From positions 1-26,385 of the IMG/VR virus record IMGVR_UViG_3300032288_005327: 26,385 nucleotides of DNA. The stretch is one strand, 5' to 3'. This document shows, piece by piece, positions 1 through 19,655 of this stretch. Source of the DNA: a virus. The stretch's first letter is position 1, and each line of letters begins with the position of its first letter. Both the position numbers and the translations under genes were made by a program. The notes beneath the pieces are model-generated. The model saw nothing but the letters and a program-made list of their open reading frames with translations, had not been told where the DNA came from and did no database searches.

Positions 1-414
1 CACTTTTTGTTTCAGGGCTTGGAACTCGTCCTTGTCCCTCGGCGTAACCTTTTTCCGAAACTTGCATTTTTCGCATGTTTCGTATCTTGTGCGTATCTCC
101 CTATCATTGGCGTACTTGCGAATGGGAGTCTTCTTCATTGCGAAGATGAAGTCCCTCCATTTGTCGTAACGCGGATTTTCCTTGGTCACCTGCTGTTCCG
201 GATTTTCCTCCACAAGCCATGGCCAGTTCTTGGCGTAGTAGATCAGGATTTCTTCCTCCGGATTGCCGATCTTTTTGCCGTTCGCTATTCGGAAATCACG
301 AATTTTTTCCACTAGTTCATCGAATGATTCGGCCTTGAACATGACGGCGCGATCATTGAAGTGGTGGCCCCCGTAGGGGATCCGCATGGAGTTTTCCTTG
401 AGTCTAAGATTCAT
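1..414 (-). CDS. Partial hypothetical protein downstream of terminase
   Basis: Open reading frame on the minus strand that runs off the left edge; 138 codons are visible. The chosen start (ATG at 414) overlaps the last 11 bases of the terminase gene and is preceded by GACGGAG, a good ribosome binding site lying inside the terminase 3' end, so translation is probably coupled. A second in-frame ATG lies at 387. The protein is hydrophilic and contains a CxxC pair (TCEKCKFR) about 108 residues in, which could be half of a zinc ribbon continuing outside the window. I do not recognise the family. Its place just after the terminase suggests a packaging or late-region role, but this is inference only. 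Confidence 0.75.
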   Translation of the reverse strand, partial: MNLRLKENSMRIPYGGHHFNDRAVMFKAESFDELVEKIRDFRIANGKKIGNPEEEILIYYAKNWPWLVEENPEQQVTKENPRYDKWRDFIFAMKKTPIRKYANDREIRTRYETCEKCKFRKKVTPRDKDEFQALKQKV

Positions 415-3322
415 CGGCTCCGTCGATTGAGATCGAGTCATCCGCCTCCACATTGACGTAGCCTTTCATAGAGTACAACTTGATGTTGGAAGGGCCTGAT
501 TCTGGGCGGTTGATCTGGTGCTCCACCAAGCCAGGAATCACATCCGAGGTTTGGCGAATCATGTGAACTAGCATGATCACGGCATCAGCCTCGTCGGGAG
601 AGTTCTGGTTGCGGGACTTGTATTCCTCCTTGGCTTCTACCTTGATTCCCTTTGCTCCTGTCCTGTAACGCCTGCTCGTTAGCTGGGTATGGAGAGGTTG
701 AGGAGGGATGATGGGGTTGATCAGGATGGCGCGGCAGGACGGATCCAACCAGCGTCGGAAAGCCCACCACATCTCGGACATGAGCCCATCGCATTGTTTG
801 TCGGCTCCATTCTGGTCTTCAGCTAGGATCTTTAACTCGGAAGCCTTTTCGTTCCAAGCGATTCCTAGTACTTCTCCCCATACCTTGCAGAGGTGAGACC
901 AAGTTCCGAAACCATAGCCCGTTTTGTCCACGGCGACATGATCTGGATCTATTTGCAGCATCTTGCAGCGACCCATGATCTCCTCAGCCATCTTGACCGT
1001 GTTATCGTGCTTCTCCAATGGGATCAACTGGTCTATCTGAAGAACATGGCGGGGTTTATCCTTGGCGGAGTTAAGCCTGTCTTTGAAGGGTTGGAAACGG
1101 CCCATGTGGTCCTCCCAACCGGATGCCAGACCCCATCTTCCTATCGCCATTTGGGCAGAGTCCTTGCCCATGAATGCCAAGTCCACGGAGGCAAATACTT
1201 CAGGATTCTCGATGAAGGTAGCCTCTCCCCTTGCCTCCTGTGGCCATTGAGGCGGGATGATCGTGTTGACATCGCCCTTCATCGGGGGCCAGCCACGGGC
1301 AAAGCAGGAGTAGTTTGGTGAGTTATCTCCTCCCGCCTTCAGATAGGAGATGAAACCTTCGTAAGTTTGAAGGCCAGGGTAGACTACAACCCGTTGCTTG
1401 ACGTTCTCCGATAGCGCCGCATCCAACCGGCAAACGCGCCAACCCGCCTTGGAACTCCAGTCGTACAGGCGATCCATGTCATCCACGGACCAGCCATGCT
1501 CCGGTTCCGCCAGTTGCACCACATGGACGGAGGAAGACTCGGGATTGAAGGCTACGGCGATCTTGATGAGCTCCGTGCCGGATTTGGACGCGATGAGCGA
1601 GTTGAAGTCCTTGAACGGCCCGTTCGGCCAGTTTTGCCCTTCGTCGCCGAGCACCCGCAATCGGGACAGGTAGCCGAACTTCTCGTGCTTCTTTTTCCGC
1701 ACCGGTTGCGCCTTGTACCCTTTGAACTGACCGGACGTTTCTTGGGATTGCTTAAATGCAATTCCGGAGATGCCAAAGCCATAACCGGCGGCTTTGACTC
1801 CCATCCACAAAGTCGAGTCCTGTACGGTGATCTCGTACGCGCTAGGAATAGCGCAAGAGCGGTAGAGATTAACAACGTGGGCAAAAAGGTTTTTTCGGAG
1901 ATGATCTTCATTGACGGCGGCTAGTTTGACGGTGGTGTAGAATGGATCGCGCAGGTAATCCAAAAGCATATATGCGCCAGCGGCATACGTATTATGGGTT
2001 ACCGTAAAATCGCCCAGCAGGAACCGATGGTTTCCGTCGATGACAAATCCGTAATACTTTCCGTCGCCGATGGGCTCCACCTTGAATCCTGTGTTACAAA
2101 GGTTTTTCTTTGTTTTCGGCTCCAAGGCATGTTTTTCCAAAGTCGGGATTTCAGTTATTCCAACCCCCGATATTCCAACATGGAAGTAGGTTCCGGAAAA
2201 ACCGATGGATTTGATCCTGTGGACTCGCGGCGTTACCGTGGAAGCGTACCCCAATGAACGGGCCAAACGCATCACCTGATTAGCCAAAGCCTCATGCTTA
2301 GTGACGAATTGGTAGGATGTTTTGCAGGAGACCCATCCATCCGAGTCGATAAGACCGGCAAGAAGCTTAAGCCGGTTCTCCCTTGAGTTGACCAAGTAGT
2401 CATTCAGGATAGTTTTTTCCCCATTGATCCTGCTGGTTCTGATGAAGTCCAGAAACGGGTTTTTCCCGTTTTCAGGCCATCTCGCCGCCCACATTGGACA
2501 CTTATCATGATATCCCGACCAGATTCGGTAGCCTAGGGCCTGAAAGTACTCCACCCAACGCTTGGCCATGGGGCCATCGGGAGTATGGAGGGCGGGCACA
2601 TCAAATCCTCCATCGCCTATCCAAGCTCCGTAGATGTAAGGATCAAATGGAAGTGGTTTCTCCTCAAACTCCACTCCGACATGGAATTGCTTGAGGAGGT
2701 TCTTCTTATCCTTGGAAAGTTCCAAGTATTCCTTGATCGGGATGTCAATTACATCTCCCTTCCTCCATTTCTTACTAAGGCATCCTGAGCCGCATTTCTT
2801 ATGGGCAGATACCCTTAACGAAAGGATATGGGCATCGTTGCATTCCCAAGGCTCTCCACGTTCAGGGGTAATTCGGTACATCGGCCCGAATCCGGGATTG
2901 GCGACAAGGACCTTTCGTGGTGTTGAGTCGTCACCCATCAGTTGATCGCCAACCTTTACCTCTTTGGCGATTTTAACGGATCCATCGAACATGATTACGG
3001 GCGTGTCCGGATGGAGACACTTACTCATCGACGAAGCGCCCATGAGTAGAACGGTGGAACCCTCCTGCATGGCCTTGAAGACACGCACGGTTGATTCCGG
3101 CTCCGTGTTGAATTGCTCCGGACCCCATTGGAGCGTTGCCGCCTCAAGGTACATCTCGCTATCCAGCAGATGCTGGAGGAGGTCCTGCACCACCTTAAGT
3201 CCCTCGGCGTTGTTGGACACGACATGGTCCGTCTCTAGGATCTGGCAGATCCTAGTTCCGGCGGCCATCCAAAGGCCATCCGCGCAGAGCCGGTTAAGCT
3301 CCTTGGCGTGGTCAATCGTCAT
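404..3322 (-). CDS. terL: Terminase large subunit precursor with intein
   Basis: Phage packaging motor: an ATPase that drives DNA into the prohead plus a nuclease that cuts it. The 972-residue reading frame is a 629-residue terminase split by a 343-residue intein (residues 102-444). The N-extein ends GASSMSK and the C-extein begins TYAAG; joined they give GASSMSKT, a Walker A motif with Ser in place of the usual Gly before Lys. Walker B is LRVLGDEG (residues 555-562, D560/E561). The C-terminal RNase H-like nuclease shows FASVDLAF (D714), VAVDKTGYG (D799) and SPDEADA (D910/D913). The start overlaps the upstream stop as ATGA and follows AAGAAGG. Family assignment is strong from this motif order. 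Splicing should be needed for activity because the P-loop is interrupted. Confidence 0.95.
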   Translation of the reverse strand: MTIDHAKELNRLCADGLWMAAGTRICQILETDHVVSNNAEGLKVVQDLLQHLLDSEMYLEAATLQWGPEQFNTEPESTVRVFKAMQEGSTVLLMGASSMSKCLHPDTPVIMFDGSVKIAKEVKVGDQLMGDDSTPRKVLVANPGFGPMYRITPERGEPWECNDAHILSLRVSAHKKCGSGCLSKKWRKGDVIDIPIKEYLELSKDKKNLLKQFHVGVEFEEKPLPFDPYIYGAWIGDGGFDVPALHTPDGPMAKRWVEYFQALGYRIWSGYHDKCPMWAARWPENGKNPFLDFIRTSRINGEKTILNDYLVNSRENRLKLLAGLIDSDGWVSCKTSYQFVTKHEALANQVMRLARSLGYASTVTPRVHRIKSIGFSGTYFHVGISGVGITEIPTLEKHALEPKTKKNLCNTGFKVEPIGDGKYYGFVIDGNHRFLLGDFTVTHNTYAAGAYMLLDYLRDPFYTTVKLAAVNEDHLRKNLFAHVVNLYRSCAIPSAYEITVQDSTLWMGVKAAGYGFGISGIAFKQSQETSGQFKGYKAQPVRKKKHEKFGYLSRLRVLGDEGQNWPNGPFKDFNSLIASKSGTELIKIAVAFNPESSSVHVVQLAEPEHGWSVDDMDRLYDWSSKAGWRVCRLDAALSENVKQRVVVYPGLQTYEGFISYLKAGGDNSPNYSCFARGWPPMKGDVNTIIPPQWPQEARGEATFIENPEVFASVDLAFMGKDSAQMAIGRWGLASGWEDHMGRFQPFKDRLNSAKDKPRHVLQIDQLIPLEKHDNTVKMAEEIMGRCKMLQIDPDHVAVDKTGYGFGTWSHLCKVWGEVLGIAWNEKASELKILAEDQNGADKQCDGLMSEMWWAFRRWLDPSCRAILINPIIPPQPLHTQLTSRRYRTGAKGIKVEAKEEYKSRNQNSPDEADAVIMLVHMIRQTSDVIPGLVEHQINRPESGPSNIKLYSMKGYVNVEADDSISIDGADES
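1991..3019 (-). mobile_element. Intein with LAGLIDADG homing endonuclease inside terL
   Basis: An in-frame protein-splicing element, residues 102-444 of the terL product. It starts with Cys1 (block A: CLHPDTPVIMFDG), has a block B-like region ending NDAHIL (residues 162-167), and ends with block F/G (FVIDGNHRFLLGDF then VTHN), giving the penultimate His and terminal Asn. The +1 extein residue is Thr445. Two LAGLIDADG-type motifs sit between the splicing halves: YGAWIGDGG (about 231-239) and LLAGLIDSDG (about 320-329), so a homing endonuclease is probably intact. All splicing residues expected of a class 1 intein are present. The insertion point is the Walker A motif of the host ATPase, a site that inteins commonly target. 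Confidence 0.95.
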
Positions 3323-6455: not shown

Positions 6456-6529
6456 TGGGTGCAGGGACGAGAATTGAACTCGTATCATTCGGGTATGAAC
6501 CGAGCGTTCTGCCGTTAAACTACCCTGCA
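6456..6529 (-). tRNA. tRNA-Met (CAT anticodon)
   Basis: Complete cloverleaf on the minus strand. The acceptor stem is TGCAGGG/CCCTGCA (7 bp), the D stem GTTT/GAAC, the anticodon loop TTCATAC with anticodon CAT, and the T stem ACGAG/CTCGT around TTCAATT. Discriminator C is followed by an encoded CCA. One C-A mismatch sits at the outer end of the anticodon stem. A CAT anticodon could serve Met, or Ile if the C is lysidine-modified; sequence alone does not decide. A promoter lies about 60 bases upstream. Confidence 0.93.
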
Positions 6530-8323: not shown

Positions 8324-8809
8324 ATGACCAAGGAGCAATTCCGCCAATCCTTAAAGGAACTCTTCACCAAGTTCCCCTATTACCTAGCCACCTACGTCTT
8401 CCTCGTAGGTATCATCTGGTTACTCTTCTTCCCATTCAAGCCCGTCAAGCTCGATCCGCCCACCTATATCACCCCAAACGCCCAAGGAGAAGCCCTCATC
8501 AAAGCCCATACCTCAAACGGCCAAGTCTTCAAGGTATCCTATACAGGAAGCATGAAGCCCTTACTCCAAGGAGGGGAATGGGTAGTAACAGCCGCCGCCT
8601 ACAACCAGATCCAACTCGGCCAAGTCCTAGTCTACAAAGCCCCCTACAACCAATCCCCCATCATCCATAGAGCCGTCCAAAAGGACAAAGACGGGTGGAT
8701 CATGTCTGGCGACTCCTCCCCAAGAAGCGAACCTTGGTTCAGGGTAACCCCAGAAACCTACATCGGAACAACCATCGCCATCTTCAGAGACCCCAAAAAC
8801 ACCCCCTAG
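8324..8809 (+). CDS. Membrane-anchored signal-peptidase-like (S24/S26) protein
   Basis: 161 residues. A basic N-terminus is followed by one transmembrane helix (residues 20-38, YYLATYVFLVGIIWLLFFPF). The rest resembles the serine peptidase fold of signal peptidase I and LexA: YTGSMKPLL (Ser76, with the S-x-M-x-P signature), GQVLVYKAP then IIHRAV (His115-Arg116), and MSGDSSPRS (G129-D130). Ser-His-Asp in this order fits the Sec11-like branch better than the Ser-Lys bacterial Lep branch. It would face the periplasm or cell exterior, and could process viral or host exported proteins (inference). Codon choice here is strikingly C-ended compared with its neighbours. Confidence 0.8.
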   Translation: MTKEQFRQSLKELFTKFPYYLATYVFLVGIIWLLFFPFKPVKLDPPTYITPNAQGEALIKAHTSNGQVFKVSYTGSMKPLLQGGEWVVTAAAYNQIQLGQVLVYKAPYNQSPIIHRAVQKDKDGWIMSGDSSPRSEPWFRVTPETYIGTTIAIFRDPKNTP

Positions 8810-11763: not shown

Positions 11764-11955
11764 ATGAAAAACTACACACACCATACCATCCGCCTGAAGG
11801 GCGTTCCCCAGCAGAAGGTCAAGATTCCCTACGTCCTTCGTAGGCATCAGGTGAACCAAGTCATCCGTGCCTTCCTCAAGGCGACCCGAAGGGACACCAT
11901 CGAGGACACGGTTTACGTTTGGTCCAACGAGAAGAAGCGGTTTGTTGCCGTATGA
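11764..11955 (+). CDS. Small basic hypothetical protein
   Basis: 63 residues, basic (RRHQVNQVIRAFLKATRRD in the centre). It has no Shine-Dalgarno site; the ATG directly follows ACTTTCCCCC, a 10-mer that recurs before two other genes. The stop overlaps the endolysin start as ATGA. No membrane segment; function unknown. Confidence 0.65.
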   Translation: MKNYTHHTIRLKGVPQQKVKIPYVLRRHQVNQVIRAFLKATRRDTIEDTVYVWSNEKKRFVAV

Positions 11956-12329
11956 AACCCCTGCTGTTCCTGCTTGTCTCAGGAATGGCCTTTGCGAGCC
12001 CGCCAGACGCGTTTTGGCGGGCTTTGCATTTGACCGAGACATCCGGTCGCCTCGGACCGATAAAAGGCGATAAAGGCAAAGCATTGGGCCCTTTCCAGAT
12101 CCATCGCAAGTATTGGGAGGATACCAAGCTGCCAGGAAAGTACGAAGACGTTGCCGATTACGACTATGCGAAGCAGGTTGTGACCGCCTACCTGAAGAAG
12201 TACGCCCGCAAGGCATGGGACGACGGGGATATCGAAACCCTCGCCCGTGTCCACAACGGCGGACCAAACGGCCATCGCAAGGAATCAACCCTTGGCTATG
12301 CCAAGAAGGTAATGAGGAACCTGCCATGA
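11952..12329 (+). CDS. Exported lysozyme-like endolysin
   Basis: 125 residues. The N-terminal signal sequence is MKPLLFLLVSGMAFAS, with cleavage plausible after residue 15 or 16. The mature part is a small lysozyme or transglycosylase-like domain: LTETSG (Glu29, likely catalytic acid), KGKALGPFQIHRKYW (residues 41-55), and ARVHNGGPNG (residues 98-107), a combination typical of lysozyme-superfamily muramidases. It would cut peptidoglycan glycan strands after export by the Sec route. Start and stop overlap both neighbours as ATGA. The family is recognised by motif only; an invertebrate-type or goose-type relative cannot be told apart here. Confidence 0.8.
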   Translation: MKPLLFLLVSGMAFASPPDAFWRALHLTETSGRLGPIKGDKGKALGPFQIHRKYWEDTKLPGKYEDVADYDYAKQVVTAYLKKYARKAWDDGDIETLARVHNGGPNGHRKESTLGYAKKVMRNLP

Positions 12330-12424: not shown

Positions 12425-13273
12425 ATGAAGATAACACTAGGTTCGGACCCTGAGCTTATGCTCATGGACAGAAACGCGGGCAAGATCGTCAATGCCCTTG
12501 ATGTCATCGGACGGGACAAGAACGATCCCGTGGAATTGGATTGCGGCGAGAAGTACTACGCCGACAACGCCCTGTTTGAGTTCTCGGTCAAGCCAGCCGA
12601 TACCACATTGGGCATCATATCCAACCTTCAGCGTGTCATCCAAGAGTCGGCCTTCCGGTTGCCTGATCACAAGATGGTGGCGCAATCGTCCCATGTCTTC
12701 GACAAGGAGGATCTGAAGAATCCCTCGTCTTGGCTGATCGGCTGCACGCCCAGCTTCAATGCGTGGACCGAGCAGGTCAACCAGCCAGGAAAGTTCGAGT
12801 CCGGTTTGCGTACCGGCTCCTTCCATATCCATATCGGCATGGGTACGCTCAAGAAATTGAGCGAAAAACTGTTAGCCGTGAGGATGCTCGACATCCACCT
12901 TGGCTGCGCGAGCGTTTTGTTCGACCAGGACCCCAGCGTGAAGGCTCGGCGTCAACTTTACGGCAAGGCTGGTGAGTTCAGGCCCACTCCCTACGGCATC
13001 GAGTATCGTGTGCTCGGCAACTGGGCGCTCGGCAACAAGGAGTTGACCACCTTCATCTTCGACTTCGTGGGCTGGATCCTGCTGGAGAGCAAGGATAACG
13101 CCCAGAAGATCGTCAAGGAGGTCAATCGTGAGGATGTGTTCCAAGCGATCAACGAATGCGATGCTTTGGCGGCTGTGCGCGTACTCAAGTCCGTATGTCT
13201 TCCCGACCGAATCATGGACACCATCTCGAAGAACTACAGCCATGACTTCAACGCTGCATGGGGTGTGAAATGA
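12425..13273 (+). CDS. COOH-NH2 ligase type 2 (phiEco32-like amidoligase)
   Basis: 282 residues, with the glutamine-synthetase-like ATP-dependent amide ligase fold. Signature elements in order: LGSDPELML (residues 5-13), VELDCGEKYYADNALFEF (36-53), GSFHIHIGMG (131-140), and GKAGEFRPTPYGIEYRVLGN (180-199). This matches the phage phiEco32-like COOH.NH2 ligase type 2 family, which is predicted to join a carboxylate to an amine using ATP; the product is not known. It opens the amidoligase cluster, with an AGGA site before the ATG, and its stop overlaps the next start as ATGA, so the two are coupled. Length is typical of a stand-alone domain. Confidence 0.9.
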   Translation: MKITLGSDPELMLMDRNAGKIVNALDVIGRDKNDPVELDCGEKYYADNALFEFSVKPADTTLGIISNLQRVIQESAFRLPDHKMVAQSSHVFDKEDLKNPSSWLIGCTPSFNAWTEQVNQPGKFESGLRTGSFHIHIGMGTLKKLSEKLLAVRMLDIHLGCASVLFDQDPSVKARRQLYGKAGEFRPTPYGIEYRVLGNWALGNKELTTFIFDFVGWILLESKDNAQKIVKEVNREDVFQAINECDALAAVRVLKSVCLPDRIMDTISKNYSHDFNAAWGVK

Positions 13274-13959
13274 AAATCATCAACAATCAGAACCGGTCCG
13301 TGCTGACCGAGGGCAGGAACTACGGACTCGGCTTCGCCTTCCTGAAGAAGATCAACGACGAGACCTTCGAGACCATTCAACCCATCTCTCCGTGCAAGGA
13401 CTACCTCAACGACGTAGTCTACTCTGAAGCCACGGGCAGACCGTTCGCAGCATGGGGTCTCAAGACTACCAAACAGGGAATCTTCGAGGGCGATCATGCC
13501 TACATGGCCCTTGCCGTGTGCAAGATGGGCAGATCGTTGTCCACCTATTCCGGCTATGACGAAGAACTGGAACTGATGGCCAACAACCGTGAGAACATGG
13601 AGAAGTTCATACACGGGATTGAAACCAAGCTTGGCATTGGAAAGACCAAACTGGTGGATGTGGATGATAACCTGAAACTTGCCATCATGGACAAGCAATG
13701 GGCCTCGGCAACCTACTTGATCTCCCTGTATGCCCTGATGTTGCGGGTAGCCCTGCAATACGAAGGCGGAGGGGTTATGACACATATGCGGGAGATCGAC
13801 TCGCCCGACCGCATGATGCTGAACGGAATCAAGGAGAAGCTTCTGATCTTATTTGAGCGCAAGGGCAACCTGCCAAAGCAGAAGCTGGAGAACATCGGAG
13901 GCGTGCACGATCACGGCATCGTAAGCGCAAACTTCAAGGACACCTACATTTATGAGTGA
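13270..13959 (+). CDS. Unrecognised protein coupled to amidoligase
   Basis: 229 residues from the ATG at 13270, overlapping the ligase stop as ATGA; an ATG at 13258 is less likely. Soluble, mixed alpha/beta. A notable stretch is SPCKDYLNDVVYSEATGRPF (residues 40-59), rich in polar residues with a Cys-Lys-Asp group. A helix-rich centre (ASATYLISLYALMLRVALQY) is mildly hydrophobic but not a membrane span. It is sandwiched between an amide ligase and a glutamine amidotransferase with overlaps on both sides, so it very probably works in the same pathway. No catalytic family assigned. Confidence 0.85.
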   Translation: MKIINNQNRSVLTEGRNYGLGFAFLKKINDETFETIQPISPCKDYLNDVVYSEATGRPFAAWGLKTTKQGIFEGDHAYMALAVCKMGRSLSTYSGYDEELELMANNRENMEKFIHGIETKLGIGKTKLVDVDDNLKLAIMDKQWASATYLISLYALMLRVALQYEGGGVMTHMREIDSPDRMMLNGIKEKLLILFERKGNLPKQKLENIGGVHDHGIVSANFKDTYIYE

Positions 13960-14689
13960 AAAGCCCATCATCAAGGCACCTATCCCAAAGATCAAGGTGT
14001 TCATCAGCAAAACGCAAACAAAAAATGATGCTTGGTGGTTTCCAAAGCCATTTGAAATCGTTAATGAAATCCATGACGCAAACCTGGTCATGTTCACAGG
14101 GGGTCCGGATGTTACGCCTAAATTGTATGGTCACTCCCCGCATCACAGTACCTGCAATGGCATTGAGCGAGATGAGATAGACAAGAAGGTGTATGATATT
14201 GCGACGTATTCTCAACTGCCAAAGATAGGCATCTGTCGTGGCGCCCAGTTCCTATGCGTGATGGCAGGAGGTGCTTTGGTTCAGGATCAAAGCAATGGAA
14301 TGGCAATTCATGCCGTGAAGACATTCACGAAGAAAAGCATAGCAGTTCGTTCAGATCATCATCAGGCTCAATATCCTTGGTGTCTTCCCGAAGGGACATG
14401 GGACTTGTTGAGCTGGACGGAAGGTATGCATAACAAACACATCGGATGGCATAATGGTATAGGAATAACCGAGTTGATTAACAATCTAGCTCACAGGTAC
14501 AACAGCCCAATCAAAGGACCAAATCTGCCCGAGATCGAGGATGTTTACTATCGTAACATCAATGCCTTAGCCATCCAATCCCACCCTGAGTGGTCGAATG
14601 AAAACGATTCAATGGATGCTTTGGCATTGGACTACTATCGCTCACTTGTCCTTCGCCTGATGTACGGATGGGACAAGGCGGCGATCTGA
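13952..14689 (+). CDS. Class I glutamine amidotransferase (peptidase C26-like)
   Basis: 245 residues. Clear motifs of the gamma-glutamyl hydrolase branch of class I amidotransferases: FTGGPDVTPKLYG (residues 48-60), GICRGAQFLCVMAGG (93-107, nucleophile Cys95), SDHHQ (134-138), and QSHPEW (209-214, His211 and Glu213). The triad Cys-His-Glu is complete. Such enzymes hydrolyse glutamine or gamma-glutamyl amides to release ammonia or free amines. Its start lies 8 bases inside the previous gene. In this setting it could supply nitrogen to, or trim gamma-glutamyl products of, the neighbouring ligases (inference). Confidence 0.9.
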   Translation: MSEKPIIKAPIPKIKVFISKTQTKNDAWWFPKPFEIVNEIHDANLVMFTGGPDVTPKLYGHSPHHSTCNGIERDEIDKKVYDIATYSQLPKIGICRGAQFLCVMAGGALVQDQSNGMAIHAVKTFTKKSIAVRSDHHQAQYPWCLPEGTWDLLSWTEGMHNKHIGWHNGIGITELINNLAHRYNSPIKGPNLPEIEDVYYRNINALAIQSHPEWSNENDSMDALALDYYRSLVLRLMYGWDKAAI

Positions 14690-14691
14690 AG

Positions 14692-14726
14692 ACTTTCCCC
14701 CTGTGGATGGGCGCAATCCATGGGGG
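14692..14726 (+). promoter_or_regulatory. Leader hairpin with recurring ACTTTCCCCC
   Basis: CCCCC/GGGGG (14697-14701 and 14722-14726) enclosing TGGAT/ATCCA with a 7-base loop. The C-run is the end of ACTTTCCCCC, also found at 9433 and 11754. A second hairpin, ACGGGA/TCCCGT (14744-14760), follows before the ATG at 14780. No T-run, so not a standard terminator. Confidence 0.4.
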
Positions 14727-14779
14727 TCAACCAACCATGCGTCACGGGAGTCAATCCCGTTAGAGAAAGGAACAAGCAC

Positions 14780-15220
14780 ATGTGCAAGATCATCAAGAAT
14801 GGCAGCGGATTGTACTACAAGACCGGCTGCGGTTTCACGGCGAACATCGACGAGGCTTCTCGCCTCGACGAGCTCGGGGTTGAGGACATCCTCAATTCCT
14901 GCGAGGACCTGGGCATCTCCAACCTCACGGTTGAGGATGAGCCTGTCTTTGCGCCGTCTGGTTCGTGGGCTGTCTGCTATGTCCGTGAGGGCGACCTCAA
15001 CGGTGATGGCAGCATCAAGCTGAACACGAACAACCCGAGCCGCCGTCGCTTCGCCACCCGTTGCGAGGCGATCATCCACGGCAGCCGATTCCATGTCCGC
15101 AAGGCCAAGGGATCGGGCGTCGCTGGATCCGCCGGTCACGTTGGCTTCTGGGTCATCCAGACCAACGATCCGGTGAATGCCGCGATCAATCCCGAGACCG
15201 GGCTGACCAACCCCGTCTGA
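14780..15220 (+). CDS. Hypothetical protein in amidoligase cluster
   Basis: 146 residues from the ATG at 14780, chosen because AGAAAGGA lies 8 bases upstream; an earlier in-frame ATG at 14720 has no such site and covers the leader hairpin. It opens MCKIIKNGSGLYYKTGCGFT, so a Cys follows Met, but the rest shows no amidotransferase motifs. A helical acidic centre (EASRLDELGVEDILNSCEDL) is followed by a beta-rich half (SWAVCYVREGDL, GFWVIQTNDPV). High G+C at third positions. It is followed by a strong terminator, so it ends the first transcript of the cluster. Family not recognised. Confidence 0.75.
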   Translation: MCKIIKNGSGLYYKTGCGFTANIDEASRLDELGVEDILNSCEDLGISNLTVEDEPVFAPSGSWAVCYVREGDLNGDGSIKLNTNNPSRRRFATRCEAIIHGSRFHVRKAKGSGVAGSAGHVGFWVIQTNDPVNAAINPETGLTNPV

Positions 15221-15237
15221 TTCAAGACAGGGCTATC

Positions 15238-15282
15238 ATGAGCAGGCTGGGTCCGACCCCCTCCTGCTCATTTTCTTTTTTA
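15238..15282 (+). terminator. Intrinsic terminator inside amidoligase cluster
   Basis: ATGAGCAGG/CCTGCTCAT (9 bp, 15238-15246 and 15263-15271) with an inner GGGT/ACCC, followed by TTTCTTTTTT. A strong rightward terminator 18 bases after the 14780 gene. The next gene therefore probably has its own promoter or relies on partial read-through or antitermination. Confidence 0.88.
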
Positions 15283-15307
15283 ACCACAACCTAAACAAGA
15301 CAGCATC

Positions 15308-17095
15308 ATGCCATCACCTTTAGATTCAGATCCAATCCCTCAAACTGAAACCTTTACGATTTCAGGAAAGATCGCGTACATTCCTCCCGATCCGGAAGCT
15401 TTTACCACTCCTACATTGGGCAACGCCAGCATCCTTGGGGCTAACCCAATGAAGACAAGGCGCAAGATATCCACGAAGGATCAGACCGATCCATCAACGC
15501 GTGTGTCTTTGTTCAAGTTTGTGTTCCCTATGTCTGCCGAGCCCGAGTGGTTCTGGTTCGAGCCTATAGGTTGGGTTCACGAGAGCGAGACACAAAAGTT
15601 CACTCGTATGTACGCCAAATGCGTACTTACAAATGCTTACATGTCCAGAGACCAGATGGTTAGGTTCTTCCATCCAGACCATGGAATGTGTTCTGCATCA
15701 ACCTCCGTGGTCATGGATAACAAGGACAAATATGTCCACGGAAGCCAAGGGTATTGGCTTAGACTAGAGGATACCATCGAAGTATTCCATTGGGACAATT
15801 GCTACGATAATAACGTTAAGAAGGTCTTTCTTAATCGCCACGCCTCAGATACTTCCTATTCAACGTGTGGTTTCGACGGTCAACTTTGGACAAGCGATTC
15901 CTTGATGAAGATCAGGAAGTCAACCAAGTACAAGTACGTTGCACGCAAGTATATAGACAACGAGAACTTTGGTAGTTGCAACGAGTGCGGAGGCAACTTC
16001 GAGATGGATCATTTGGACTTTGTCGAAGGTCCAGATGTTGAGCTTTGCGAAACGTGCAAGGTTCAATGGGAGATCAAGGACACGATCAAGCCGCACAATT
16101 ACAACAAGTATCCTGCCATCATAGCCAAGCCTACGTTGCGTTTCCCTACAACAAAAGGCCTGCATGGACCAGTAACAATTTCCACGGAACGAACCCTTCC
16201 ATGTCTTCCCGTGCGGCTATTCGGTGTCGAGGTCGAGACCGAGATGCACGCCCACGGAATGGTTAAAGCTGGGGTTCTTCGTCATAACGTGGCCCGCAAT
16301 CTGATGGATGTGCTTGGTGAGGACTTCATCTTGGCCAAGGAGGACGGCAGCTTGGTCATGAACGGCAAGTACTCGGACAATGACATCGGATCAAAGTATG
16401 CCGGCTTCGAGCTGGTCACAGCACCAGCCGATCTAGCGACCCATTACTCCCGCTGGCCATTGCTCAGTACGGCCAAGCATTACAACCTGCTCAGGTCTTG
16501 GGACACTCCAACCTGCGGCTTTCATGTCCATGTCTCACGCAACGGGATGTCTGCCCTTCAGATCGCCCGCATCGTTCTCTTCGTCAACCACCCCCACAAC
16601 AAGCTATTCATCCAGAAGGTAGCCGGTCGTGGCTCGGCCAAGTATTGCAGGTACTTCAACAAGGAACCAAAGGATGCCGTCGGCGTGCACTACAAGAACG
16701 ATGAGAATCGCAGACAAGCGGTCAACCTGACCAACGAGAAGACCATCGAGTTCCGCATCTTCCGTGGCACGGTCAACCCCAAGCATATCCTGCGGAACAT
16801 CGAGTTCTGCGATGCCATCTGCGACTTCTGCTACCCAGCCTCTCGTCCGCTTGGGGATGTCAACAACAAGATCAAGTTCTTATCCTTTGTGGAGATGAAC
16901 AAGAAACGTTGGCCGTTGCTAGCCGCTTGGTTGGCGATCCATGGCTTCATTTCAATCGACGTACCGGAACCTAAGTTCCGTGACAACATGTCCATCAAGA
17001 TGAACGACGTACCCGAGGCCGACATCTTGGTGGATAACTCTGGCAATACTTCAACGCCCGCCGTGGCGGGAGCAAGCTTTGAGGATAACTTCTGA
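15308..17095 (+). CDS. Zinc-ribbon protein with C-terminal amidoligase domain
   Basis: 595 residues. Residues 1-215 form an unrecognised region rich in aromatics (EWFWFEPIGW, 80-89). A zinc ribbon follows, CNEC (224-227) and CETC (247-250). The C-terminal half is an amidoligase (putative amidoligase enzyme, Amidoligase_2 type): FGVEVETE (305-312), KEDGSLVMNG (344-353), GFELVTAP (367-374), CGFHVHVSR (403-411), and NLTNEKTIEFRIFRGT (473-488). These are the metal/ATP-binding Glu and His positions of the glutamine-synthetase-like fold. The fused N-terminal part may bring a substrate (inference). Directly followed by the class II amidotransferase gene. Confidence 0.88.
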   Translation: MPSPLDSDPIPQTETFTISGKIAYIPPDPEAFTTPTLGNASILGANPMKTRRKISTKDQTDPSTRVSLFKFVFPMSAEPEWFWFEPIGWVHESETQKFTRMYAKCVLTNAYMSRDQMVRFFHPDHGMCSASTSVVMDNKDKYVHGSQGYWLRLEDTIEVFHWDNCYDNNVKKVFLNRHASDTSYSTCGFDGQLWTSDSLMKIRKSTKYKYVARKYIDNENFGSCNECGGNFEMDHLDFVEGPDVELCETCKVQWEIKDTIKPHNYNKYPAIIAKPTLRFPTTKGLHGPVTISTERTLPCLPVRLFGVEVETEMHAHGMVKAGVLRHNVARNLMDVLGEDFILAKEDGSLVMNGKYSDNDIGSKYAGFELVTAPADLATHYSRWPLLSTAKHYNLLRSWDTPTCGFHVHVSRNGMSALQIARIVLFVNHPHNKLFIQKVAGRGSAKYCRYFNKEPKDAVGVHYKNDENRRQAVNLTNEKTIEFRIFRGTVNPKHILRNIEFCDAICDFCYPASRPLGDVNNKIKFLSFVEMNKKRWPLLAAWLAIHGFISIDVPEPKFRDNMSIKMNDVPEADILVDNSGNTSTPAVAGASFEDNF

Positions 17096-17131
17096 TAGCA
17101 ACCGTAACATAACAAACAGGAAGACAACAAC

Positions 17132-18421
17132 ATGTGCATAATCGTCTGCAAACCCACCGGCGTCTCATTGGATAAGCAAGTTTGGAAGAACTGCTTCGAT
17201 AACAATGACGACGGCGCCGGTATCATGTACGTCAACGACAACAAAGTGGTTGTTGACAAAGGCCACTTCGATTTCGACAAGCTGCACGAAGCAATCGAGA
17301 AGCTGACCGACAAGGACATTGTGGTTCACTTCCGTGCTGCTTCCCCTGGCATGGTCATCAATGCCGAGAATACCCATCCGTTCTTCTGGGAGAATGGCGA
17401 GACGTTTAGCTCCGATGGCAAGGTGCCAAGATACCAATGGGCCATGTGCCACAACGGCAGGTTGAAGTGGGCCAATACTGACAAGAAGTCTGATACCAAT
17501 TGCTTCGCCGAGCAGTTCCTTAATCCTTACACGGATCGGGATCCGTACTTGTTTGATGCCAAGCTAGGCATGATGATGTTCGAGACATTCATTGCTGATA
17601 ATAACAAGATCGTTGTCATGCGACATGACACGGAGGAGAACAAGACCAAGCTCTACATAGCAAATGAGAGCAAGGGTCATTGGAAGAACAAGTGCTGGTT
17701 TTCCAACCACTCCTACGAGGACAAGCCCAAGGTTTCTCAGATGGATCTATACGGAGACTATGCTGTACACTATGGTACTGGGTACGGATATGGATCCTCA
17801 AAACACAAAAGCCACTATTCCAACAATCGCCTTGCGAACAAGGACGACTTTGCGTGGCGGAAAAGGTGGAAAGAAGGGGAGGCGCATCCGCCGATAAGTC
17901 ATTCGGACATCGACAAGTTCGGATGGTTCTGGTCCTATCAGGATCAAGTTTGGTACAATGTGACCACCGGCTTTGCCGTGTCGGAACTTACTTATCGCCT
18001 CAAGCCCCAGTATGCATCTAAGGAGTGCGTAGCGTGTTTCGACGATGAGACTAAGATTCCCGATCAACCTGCCAAGCTGGACCTAGAGGGTGGCGTCAAG
18101 GACAGCGTGAAGCTGGACCAGTTCGAGGACGAGGGTGGAGTTATCGTCGAGATATCCACCATCAGTCATTTGGAGAAGCACGAGATAGCTATGCTGTGCA
18201 AGAAGTTCTCAAGCTGGGCCAAGGCATTGAAGCTTCCGTTGGGAGACTTGAGAAGCATGAATGCCAAAGAGAAAATCGAAGCGTTGCGTGAAATTGTTCT
18301 TGAGAACTATGGCAATGAGTTCCCTTACTTGGAGACCTTGGATATTGAGGCCTTGGACTTGTGGATTCTTACCAAGATCAAGGATTCCAGCCTCAAACTA
18401 ACAATCGTTTCGGAGGTGTAA
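17132..18421 (+). CDS. Class II glutamine amidotransferase-like protein
   Basis: 429 residues. It begins MCIIVCKPTG; removal of Met would expose Cys as the N-terminal nucleophile, as in class II (Ntn) amidotransferases. Supporting elements: DDGAGIMYVNDNKV (residues 27-40), IVVHFRAASPG (about 68-78) and MCHNGRL (about 107-113), which matches the conserved HNG strand. The amidotransferase domain fills about the first 200 residues; the rest is unrecognised, with a region like a small beta domain (FGWFWSYQDQVWYNVTTGF) and a helical tail. Such proteins hydrolyse glutamine to feed ammonia to a partner. AGGAAG lies before the ATG. Next to the amidoligase, a functional pair is likely. Confidence 0.88.
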   Translation: MCIIVCKPTGVSLDKQVWKNCFDNNDDGAGIMYVNDNKVVVDKGHFDFDKLHEAIEKLTDKDIVVHFRAASPGMVINAENTHPFFWENGETFSSDGKVPRYQWAMCHNGRLKWANTDKKSDTNCFAEQFLNPYTDRDPYLFDAKLGMMMFETFIADNNKIVVMRHDTEENKTKLYIANESKGHWKNKCWFSNHSYEDKPKVSQMDLYGDYAVHYGTGYGYGSSKHKSHYSNNRLANKDDFAWRKRWKEGEAHPPISHSDIDKFGWFWSYQDQVWYNVTTGFAVSELTYRLKPQYASKECVACFDDETKIPDQPAKLDLEGGVKDSVKLDQFEDEGGVIVEISTISHLEKHEIAMLCKKFSSWAKALKLPLGDLRSMNAKEKIEALREIVLENYGNEFPYLETLDIEALDLWILTKIKDSSLKLTIVSEV

Positions 18422-18427
18422 TCAACA

Positions 18428-18781
18428 ATGCAAAAGCATATTGTTCTAGGAGATCATCAGATAGTTCTGCCAAACGACGTAGTGGTAAGATCAAGCGTTT
18501 GTTTTGAATCAACATCAGATCTGGTTCAGGCTATCAAATCAGTGATTGAAAATTCAGAGTTATATGGAGGCCCTGATTTTAACAACAACAGTAGAAAATA
18601 TATTGTGTGTGCTCCCAATGGATATGGCATAGGGGATTACACGGTTGGAAGGGTAAAGCAAATGGTTGGTGGTTCAAATATGGTGGCTGCCATAATCAGA
18701 CTTACAAAGCCACAAGACTACTTCCCAGTAAGTAAGCCCAAGTCTTTGTCATCGTACGCCAGTCCTCTTCCATTGCCATGA
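18428..18781 (+). CDS. Small protein with LSSYxxxLPLP C-terminal tail (1)
   Basis: 117 residues, from a more A/T-rich patch than its neighbours. A beta-rich fold is likely (HIVLGDHQIVLPNDVVV at the start; KYIVCAPNGYG in the middle). It ends KPKSLSSYASPLPLP, and the same spaced ending, LSSYxxxLPLP, closes the next protein although the two share no other clear similarity. It starts 6 bases after the class II amidotransferase and its stop overlaps the next start as ATGA. Function unknown; the shared tail in an amidoligase cluster suggests a recognition or modification signal. Confidence 0.8.
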   Translation: MQKHIVLGDHQIVLPNDVVVRSSVCFESTSDLVQAIKSVIENSELYGGPDFNNNSRKYIVCAPNGYGIGDYTVGRVKQMVGGSNMVAAIIRLTKPQDYFPVSKPKSLSSYASPLPLP

Positions 18782-19269
18782 AACTTGGAAAAGTACATTA
18801 CTTAGGGTCATGCCTTGATAACCAAGGAAAGATGGTAGATTTCTACGCCAGGAAGATTGGAGTGTTAAAATACTACATGCTTCCTACGTCCATCATAGTG
18901 GTGAATGGGCTTAGGAAACCTGTGCTACATCTCGTTGATATACCATCTAACCTTTGCAACTACCATTGGAACAACGATGTTTGTTTTCATGAGTTTGTCC
19001 GAACAAACATCTGGGCATTTTCAAACAGCATTCAAATGTTATCTACGAAACAACATTTGATGTCATGTTGCGAGGCGAATAACATGGAGCGCGTAAGTCT
19101 CGGACTTCATGAGATCAAGTACAACTTAAAGTTCTGGATTCTTTGCGATTCAGAAGGCAATGTTTACGACAGCTGGCGAATGAATATTTTAAGGTCAAAG
19201 TTGCACTCGACAAAGCCGCGAAAAGCTTCAACCCTATCTTCTTATTCCGAATGCCTTCCCCTTCCATGA
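18778..19269 (+). CDS. Small protein with LSSYxxxLPLP C-terminal tail (2)
   Basis: 163 residues, Cys- and aromatic-rich, soluble. It ends KPRKASTLSSYSECLPLP; the last 11 residues match the tail of the preceding protein in LSSYxxxLPLP with identical spacing, but with different codons (CTA TCT TCT TAT against TTG TCA TCG TAC), so the likeness is at protein level. The body is unrecognised; a beta segment (IIVVNGLRKPVLHLVDIP) is followed by a helical Cys-rich region with CC. Start and stop overlap its neighbours as ATGA. Confidence 0.8.
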   Translation: MKLGKVHYLGSCLDNQGKMVDFYARKIGVLKYYMLPTSIIVVNGLRKPVLHLVDIPSNLCNYHWNNDVCFHEFVRTNIWAFSNSIQMLSTKQHLMSCCEANNMERVSLGLHEIKYNLKFWILCDSEGNVYDSWRMNILRSKLHSTKPRKASTLSSYSECLPLP

Positions 19270-19655
19270 CAAAAACAAAAGATCAATGGGTTCTTATCCA
19301 AGCCGAAGAGACCGTCAATGGTCTGGATAGCGGAGTGGGTAGATTCATCAAGAAGAACAACGTCAATCTGAAGCCCAACAAAGGCGTGCCGATGCATCCA
19401 CGGGAAGCCTTCTTCAACGTATTGACGGATGACTCACGACCGGACTACCCATTTGAAGAGTCCTACATGAAGGCTATTGGCAAGGCGTTGGAGGAAGATG
19501 GATTGATGGCCCGTTGTGCGGTGGCTGAAGACAATGAGAAGTTGTTTCGTGCCACGGTAAGGACTATTGTAAATGCCGAGACCATCCGCTTTTTGGAAGC
19601 CCATAGAGAACCCGCGTTGAAGTTAATCCTTAAACTGCGCGGAGAGATAGAGTAA
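19266..19655 (+). CDS. Small hypothetical protein ending the amidoligase cluster
   Basis: 129 residues from the ATG at 19266, which overlaps the upstream stop as ATGA; an in-frame ATG at 19251 would add five residues. Soluble and charged, mostly helical. Centre: PREAFFNVLTDDSRPDYPFEESYMKAIGKALEEDGLM. It lacks the LPLP tail of the two preceding proteins. No motif recognised. The last gene of the run before a 220-base gene-free leader. Confidence 0.75.
   Translation: MTKTKDQWVLIQAEETVNGLDSGVGRFIKKNNVNLKPNKGVPMHPREAFFNVLTDDSRPDYPFEESYMKAIGKALEEDGLMARCAVAEDNEKLFRATVRTIVNAETIRFLEAHREPALKLILKLRGEIE

Follow-up and report, generated by a model that had tools for sequence, protein, structure and literature searches.

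We analyzed a 26,385-nt stretch of viral DNA, IMG/VR record IMGVR_UViG_3300032288_005327 (probably a fragment; hereafter the window), in which two GS-like ligases (PF14395 and PF12224) and two unrelated glutaminases, one of class I (C26-type) and one of class II (Cys2), occupy positions 12425–18421. The cluster is not categorically new: it is a hybrid that joins two phage ligase modules, each already known, and includes a conserved component that is new, the 233-residue protein P233. Its first half (type 2 ligase, P233, class I amidotransferase) belongs to the cassette lineage of phiEco32, LUZ24 and RIO-1, and its second half (amidoligase, class II amidotransferase) to a separate two-gene module. 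The best explanation overall, which we hold with about even confidence, is a hybrid phage amide-ligase cassette for which small proteins with shared C-terminal tails would act as carriers or acceptors.

An earlier note on this DNA, made from the letters alone, had named four enzymes, and Pfam, PHROG and PDB-profile matches placed all of them where that note had put them; all features of the cluster lie on the + strand. The COOH-NH2 ligase type 2 (12425–13273; 282 aa, GS/GCS-like) matched PF14395 at 51 bits (cut-off 25) and PHROG 3815 at E 9e-58 and keeps the motifs LGSDPEL, HIHIG and YGIEYR. Its relatives were found in 313 phage records by tblastn; the single protein as query found none in IMG/VR, from which relatives were gathered with an alignment as the query. 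The class I amidotransferase (13952–14689; gamma-glutamyl hydrolase-like) matched PF07722, peptidase C26, at 57 bits (cut-off 20.5), with C95, H211 and E213 and the motifs GICRGAQ and QSHPEW in place. Its nearest solved structures are Lin1909, 7d4r ("probable glutamine amidotransferase") and PuuD, and its best curated matches are gamma-glutamyl-CDP-amidate hydrolase and PuuD, both far below their cut-offs.

The amidoligase (15308–17095; 595 aa) carries a zinc ribbon ahead of a ligase domain at about residues 300–545, and PF12224 (Amidoligase_2) matched its C-terminal half only, at 38 bits (cut-off 22). The motifs FGVEVE, HVH and EFRIF are kept, and among 20 aligned phage amidoligases the ribbon cysteines C224, C227, C247 and C250 are invariant, as are E308, E310, D346-G-S348, E368, H406, H408, R411, N427, R441, N473, E481 and R483. 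Sequence searches of the PDB with either ligase returned no matches. For the class II (N-terminal nucleophile, Cys2) glutamine amidotransferase (17132–18421), which has a C-terminal extension of about 200 aa, no Pfam family matched; PHROG 25883 did, and a profile built with four relatives matched the solved class II domains of PurF and GlmS (best E 1.6e-7), the motifs MCII, HFRAASPG, HNG and SDT being kept. Both ligases therefore pass their profile searches with catalytic residues intact, and, as described below, the genes co-occur strongly.

Enzymes of both ligase families are expected to use ATP to activate a carboxylate, which is joined to an amine; class II amidotransferases liberate ammonia from glutamine. 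The pairing of a C26 enzyme with an adjacent GS/GCS-like ligase resembles the gamma-glutamyl add-then-remove chemistry of PuuA and PuuD. Judging from these family assignments, the cluster enzymes probably form amide bonds in an ATP-dependent manner.

The layout of the cluster was also examined. The earlier note had described the genes as mostly coupled by ATGA overlaps; this holds for the junctions at 13270, 13952, 18778 and 19266, and "mostly" is generous because overlaps occur at only four of the eight junctions. The strong terminator that it had placed at 15.24 kb is supported by sequence and folding: at 15238–15281, between the cluster halves, ATGAGCAGG...CCTGCTCAT forms a 9-bp stem with an inner stem, followed by the T-run TTTCTTTTTT. 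A simple scan overlooked this hairpin because of its large interrupted loop. The proposed division into two transcripts fits the position of the terminator between the ligase 2/class I half and the amidoligase/class II half, which is also the boundary between the two source modules; the two transcripts might serve two stages, as that note had suggested.

A set of genes like that in the window has been described as the "peptidoglycan modification cassette" of RIO-1-like phages, phiEco32, LUZ24, tf, PaP3 and CW02, with proposed roles in cell-wall modification, superinfection exclusion and lysis preparation (PMC5498523, PMC11945000). We confirmed the cassette layout in the annotated genomes of CW02, tf, phiEco32, T5S1, J3S, QDWS535 and Vibrio 1.262. 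Like the window, the cassette (RIO-1, phiEco32, LUZ24/tf, CW02, PSA-HP1) combines the type 2 ligase, both amidotransferases and an Amidoligase_2 protein in one operon. It differs in usually including an ATP-grasp ligase, a gamma-glutamyl cyclotransferase and a partner of about 190 aa (tf_20, phi32_85), none of which was detected in the window; P233 stands in the partner's place, and the window's amidoligase and class II amidotransferase are of another lineage.

For the neighborhood survey that the earlier note had suggested, loci were collected by ligase 2, amidoligase, class II amidotransferase, podovirus primase/helicase or T7 DNA polymerase, and all open frames were profile-scored. Within 10 kb of the type 2 ligase, in 80 loci picked by that gene alone, a class I amidotransferase was present in 65 (all 65 within 3 kb), a class II amidotransferase in 57, an ATP-grasp ligase in 69, Amidoligase_2 in 44, the ~190-aa partner in 50 and the cyclotransferase in 27. 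Cassette genes were found in 0 of 80 T7-polymerase control loci. The co-occurrence is thus far beyond chance, and against the empty control these counts show that the cluster is no chance grouping. When 80 loci were picked by the amidoligase alone, a class II amidotransferase accompanied it in 79, in 78 of these within 200 nt (median gap −6 nt), and a type 2 ligase was present in one locus, L009 (also G001; IMG/VR 3300022745_000032, 67.8 kb).

This zinc-ribbon amidoligase–class II amidotransferase pair is known from marine phages and mycobacteriophages, with examples in Methylophilales phages MEP401/402, ctgrD200 and Mycobacterium phage Marvin (gp105–106) (PMC10580990). As in the window, the two genes are adjacent and of the same clade, with a CxxC...CxxC ribbon, GS-like residues and a Cys2 class II amidotransferase; unlike in the window, the pair is not normally accompanied by ligase 2 and the class I enzyme. 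A maximum-likelihood tree built on the ligase domain grouped the amidoligases of the window and L009 with the zinc-ribbon clade and separated them from the cassette amidoligases (support 100/100). The class II amidotransferases of both were likewise placed in the zinc-ribbon clade (support 100/99), although finer placement is unsafe given several long branches. These positions indicate that the window combines one module's front with another's back, and the sequence comparisons make this module identity and hybrid origin very probable. What the earlier note had taken for a cluster that builds amide-linked groups is a real, co-inherited gene set for forming amide bonds; the trees amend that account in that the set resembles a described phage cassette, with parts from two modules.

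L009 is one relative that shares the window's gene order: ligase 2, P233, an extra ORF (open reading frame), class I amidotransferase, a small tailed ORF and a 137-aa homologue, followed by amidoligase, class II amidotransferase and four small tailed ORFs. The 137-aa homologue (L009: 9172–9585) corresponds in place to the window protein at 14780–15220, whose ORF may begin at 14720 (34% identity over 149 columns, blastp E 1e-15); no Pfam or PHROG family matched the latter. The extra protein of L009 (7010–7732, 240 aa), between P233 and the class I enzyme, has no counterpart in the window. ATP-grasp and cyclotransferase profiles (PF08443, PF02655, PF06094) found nothing in the 26-kb window or in the 67.8 kb of L009, the absence from the window being weak evidence because the window is short.

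P233 (13270–13959; ORF open from 13258) overlaps the ligase gene by ATGA and is, judged from its homologues, a new conserved component of the cassette. Homologues were found in 13 other loci, ten of which carry ligase 2 within 9 kb. They share the motifs EGR..GxGF, CKDYLND, SLY.LLR and H.xGI, and 16 columns are invariant in 13 sequences, among them E18, C46, D48-Y-L50, D52, G67, E122, W148, S156, L160, R163, H217, G220 and I221; the charged residues among the conserved positions would be in keeping with either an enzyme or a site of tight binding. An AlphaFold (AF2) model gave a confident single domain (predicted local distance difference test, pLDDT, 88.9; predicted template modelling score, pTM, 0.89), for which the PDB held nothing significant (best E 0.03) and the viral models one match, to an uncharacterised phage protein (E 1.8e-10). 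No P233 was found in bacterial genomes by a pattern scan restricted to exact CKDYLN-type words. An NHR..NSR motif seen by eye had raised the possibility that P233 is a diverged ~190-aa partner (tf_20/phi32_85), which was rejected because hhalign detected no homology between the two (E 0.66). Leptolyngbya phage Lbo-JY46 has a P233 homologue (28–32% identity) together with ligase 2, class I amidotransferase, ATP-grasp ligase, cyclotransferase and amidoligase; its gene order differs from that of the window, and its amidoligase is of the cassette clade.

Directly after the class II amidotransferase, two small proteins with unrelated bodies share a tail of the form ...SSYxxxLPLP, a feature absent from the earlier note. 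The first (18428–18781, 117 aa) ends ...SLSSYASPLPLP and the second (18778–19269, 163 aa) ends ...TLSSYSECLPLP. Their tail pair scored 40, against 24 for the next best among all ORF pairs of the window, and among 997,122 random cross-locus pairs 53 attained this score. The last overlapping ORF (19266–19655, MTKTKDQ...), taken from the ORF list and the Pfam scan, is tailless, and its membership in the cassette is uncertain. In L151, L100, L096 and about 20 related loci, the class II amidotransferase of the zinc-ribbon module, abutting an ATP-grasp gene, itself ends ...Y(A/P)SP(S/Y)LLKGKxK; the YASP part resembles the window tail ...SSYASPLPLP, maybe by chance.

Shared tails of other sequence were observed in further phages. 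Five proteins of L009 end ...(I/V)S..(A)S(I/L)P.PLP, and eight of CW02 end ...P.(L/I)LEEN. (LLEENV). In G002, the 70.6-kb contig of L246, twelve proteins end ...YDPTQMGDREDDI or near it (GDREDDI; ..GDxxDDI); its cassette (C1: 50199–65389) has two type 2 ligases, two class II amidotransferases and these twelve small proteins, whose 13-residue tail YDPTQMGDREDDI is nearly identical throughout. Between the class II amidotransferase and the ATP-grasp gene of the zinc-ribbon-module phages L112, L113, L114, L121 and L128 lie small proteins, most of which start like FxIGD, that end in a ...GY.F-type tail (RRKExGYAF); L142 has a related tail in the same interval. Mean identity was 0.59–0.89 for tails and 0.16–0.26, near that of shuffled sequence, for bodies. 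We found no paper describing shared C-terminal tails in such cassettes in the open literature, a scope that leaves the founding and Marvin genome papers outside.

The tails may be unconnected with the ligases: they could serve docking, targeting or degradation, or simply result from overlapping gene starts, on early host-takeover proteins that share the same early operon, and this explanation is somewhat less likely than not. Small overlapping genes abound in phage early regions, and most cassette phages checked are tailless. Moreover, the ten small proteins of L233 that end in F(K/R)GN or similar were rejected as carriers of a protein tag, the codons being the Shine-Dalgarno sequence of the next gene; these FKGN ends are a coding by-product of gene packing. 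Against such an origin, codon position 3 is the most variable in the PLP, GDREDDI and GYxF tails, with positions 1 and 2 more fixed, which argues for selection on the peptide, and the PLP tail codons contain no Shine-Dalgarno sequence. All twelve tailed genes of G002 and all five of L009 are interleaved with or adjoin cassette genes, and none lies elsewhere in these two long contigs. Tail families of at least four members were present in 4 of about 113 distinct ligase-2 loci but in 0 of 303 loci without ligase 2; one of the four is the L233 artefact, and for the remainder p is about 0.02 (Fisher's test, phylogeny ignored). Tail pairs occurred within 2.5 kb after the class II amidotransferase in 8 of 135 loci (7 distinct records), compared with 0 of 103 further downstream.

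Returning to the hybrid cassette with tailed carriers or acceptors, the tail of the small proteins would be a docking site or the modified end, and the ligases might charge or attach the tailed proteins, as carrier or tag, during infection. Ligase 2 and the class I amidotransferase could add and then remove a gamma-glutamyl group, since the latter resembles PuuD and gamma-glutamyl-CDP-amidate hydrolase. A protein carrier or tag is the most economical additional hypothesis because the tailed proteins are embedded in the operons, and the tail evidence moves some weight toward phage proteins among the targets that the earlier note had considered (phage protein, host wall peptide or small metabolite). 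That the tailed proteins are the substrate or carrier of the ligases is nevertheless a tentative proposal, and several points weigh against it. The tail statistics are post hoc, draw on few independent lineages, reach p ~0.02 or weaker and are uncorrected for relatedness. The EEN part of the CW02 tail coincides with a Shine-Dalgarno sequence. No tail family was seen in most cassette phages checked (tf, phiEco32, J3S, T5S1, Phriendly, QDWS535), so a tail is no general requirement, and the final residues of the tails (P, I, V, F) are unrelated and reveal no shared residue that could react. Confidence in the amidoligase model is low (pLDDT 54.5 overall, ligase domain mostly 65–94), and we found no biochemical evidence for any cassette member in the literature.

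The main rival is the published wall hypothesis, in which the peptides of host peptidoglycan receive unusual amide or gamma-glutamyl links from the ligases, so as to block superinfection or prepare lysis, with the tailed proteins as accessories. It is the literature view of the related cassette (PMC5498523, PMC11945000, PMC10580990), and it agrees with the presence, directly upstream of the ligase cluster, of a destabilase/i-type lysozyme-like protein with a signal-peptide-like start (11952–12329, +), a probable endolysin. No experiment in its favor was found in the literature, and the cyclotransferase and ATP-grasp ligase, also a basis of the published scheme, were found in neither the window nor L009; we regard it as rather unlikely here. 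Synthesis of a gamma-glutamyl or amidated small molecule, with the class I enzyme stripping a protective gamma-glutamyl group as happens when polyamines are broken down or methyl phosphoramidate is made, would suit that enzyme's sub-cut-off and structural matches and its GS/GCS-like neighbor, but is unlikely given that no metabolite synthase or transporter is recognisable in the cluster and that the conserved tails in the operons are left unexplained.

Known systems offer partial parallels. In the Puu pathway, as in the window, a GS-like ligase (PuuA) is paired with a C26 hydrolase-like protein (PuuD); the sequence similarity is distant only, and no polyamine genes were recognised in the cluster. 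Foldseek comparison of the amidoligase model returned YbdK (E 1.5e-4), glutamine synthetase (0.06), Dop–Pup (3.5e-3) and PafA–Pup (~5e-3). PafA and Dop, which act on the C-terminal end of a small protein, may share the GS/GCS superfamily fold with the amidoligase domain. Their presence among the fold neighbors speaks for tailed acceptors, the weakness of the matches (E 0.003–0.006) against them; the PDB search gave no sequence match. Pup ends GGE/GGQ; there is no Pup here, and the cassette tails end LPLP, PLP, DDI, EENV and GYAF. It is conceivable, if distinctly improbable, that several unrelated phage lineages run a pupylation-like yet distinct ribosomal peptide-tag system, in which GS-superfamily amidoligases recognise sets of small proteins that differ in body but share one phage-specific C-terminal tail and, together with glutaminases and sometimes an ATP-grasp ligase, charge that tail or conjugate the proteins to host targets during infection. 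If so, tail and ligase would co-evolve, each phage having its own tag.

Sequenced phages with amidoligase cassettes number in the hundreds, model phages of E. coli and Pseudomonas among them, and the substrate of the cassettes has been elusive since they were predicted; what would surprise a specialist is the presence of lineage-specific tails within the operons. Should the tailed proteins prove to be the substrate, a peptide of 10–13 residues and two purified enzymes would suffice for a direct test. Otherwise, the hybrid still demonstrates that the two ligase modules can be exchanged as units, and it adds P233 to the cassette.

Elsewhere in the window, the gene at 404–3322 (−) encodes a terminase large subunit with an in-frame intein (Hom_end_hint, LAGLIDADG; about residues 102–440), apparently inserted in the Walker A region (GASSMSK / intein / TYAAG). 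The protein at 8324–8809 (+), without a Pfam or PHROG match, has putative signal-peptidase-like motifs (TGSMKP, HRAV, SGDSSP) and an N-terminal hydrophobic stretch, and a tRNA-Met (CAT) gene lies at 6456–6529 (−).

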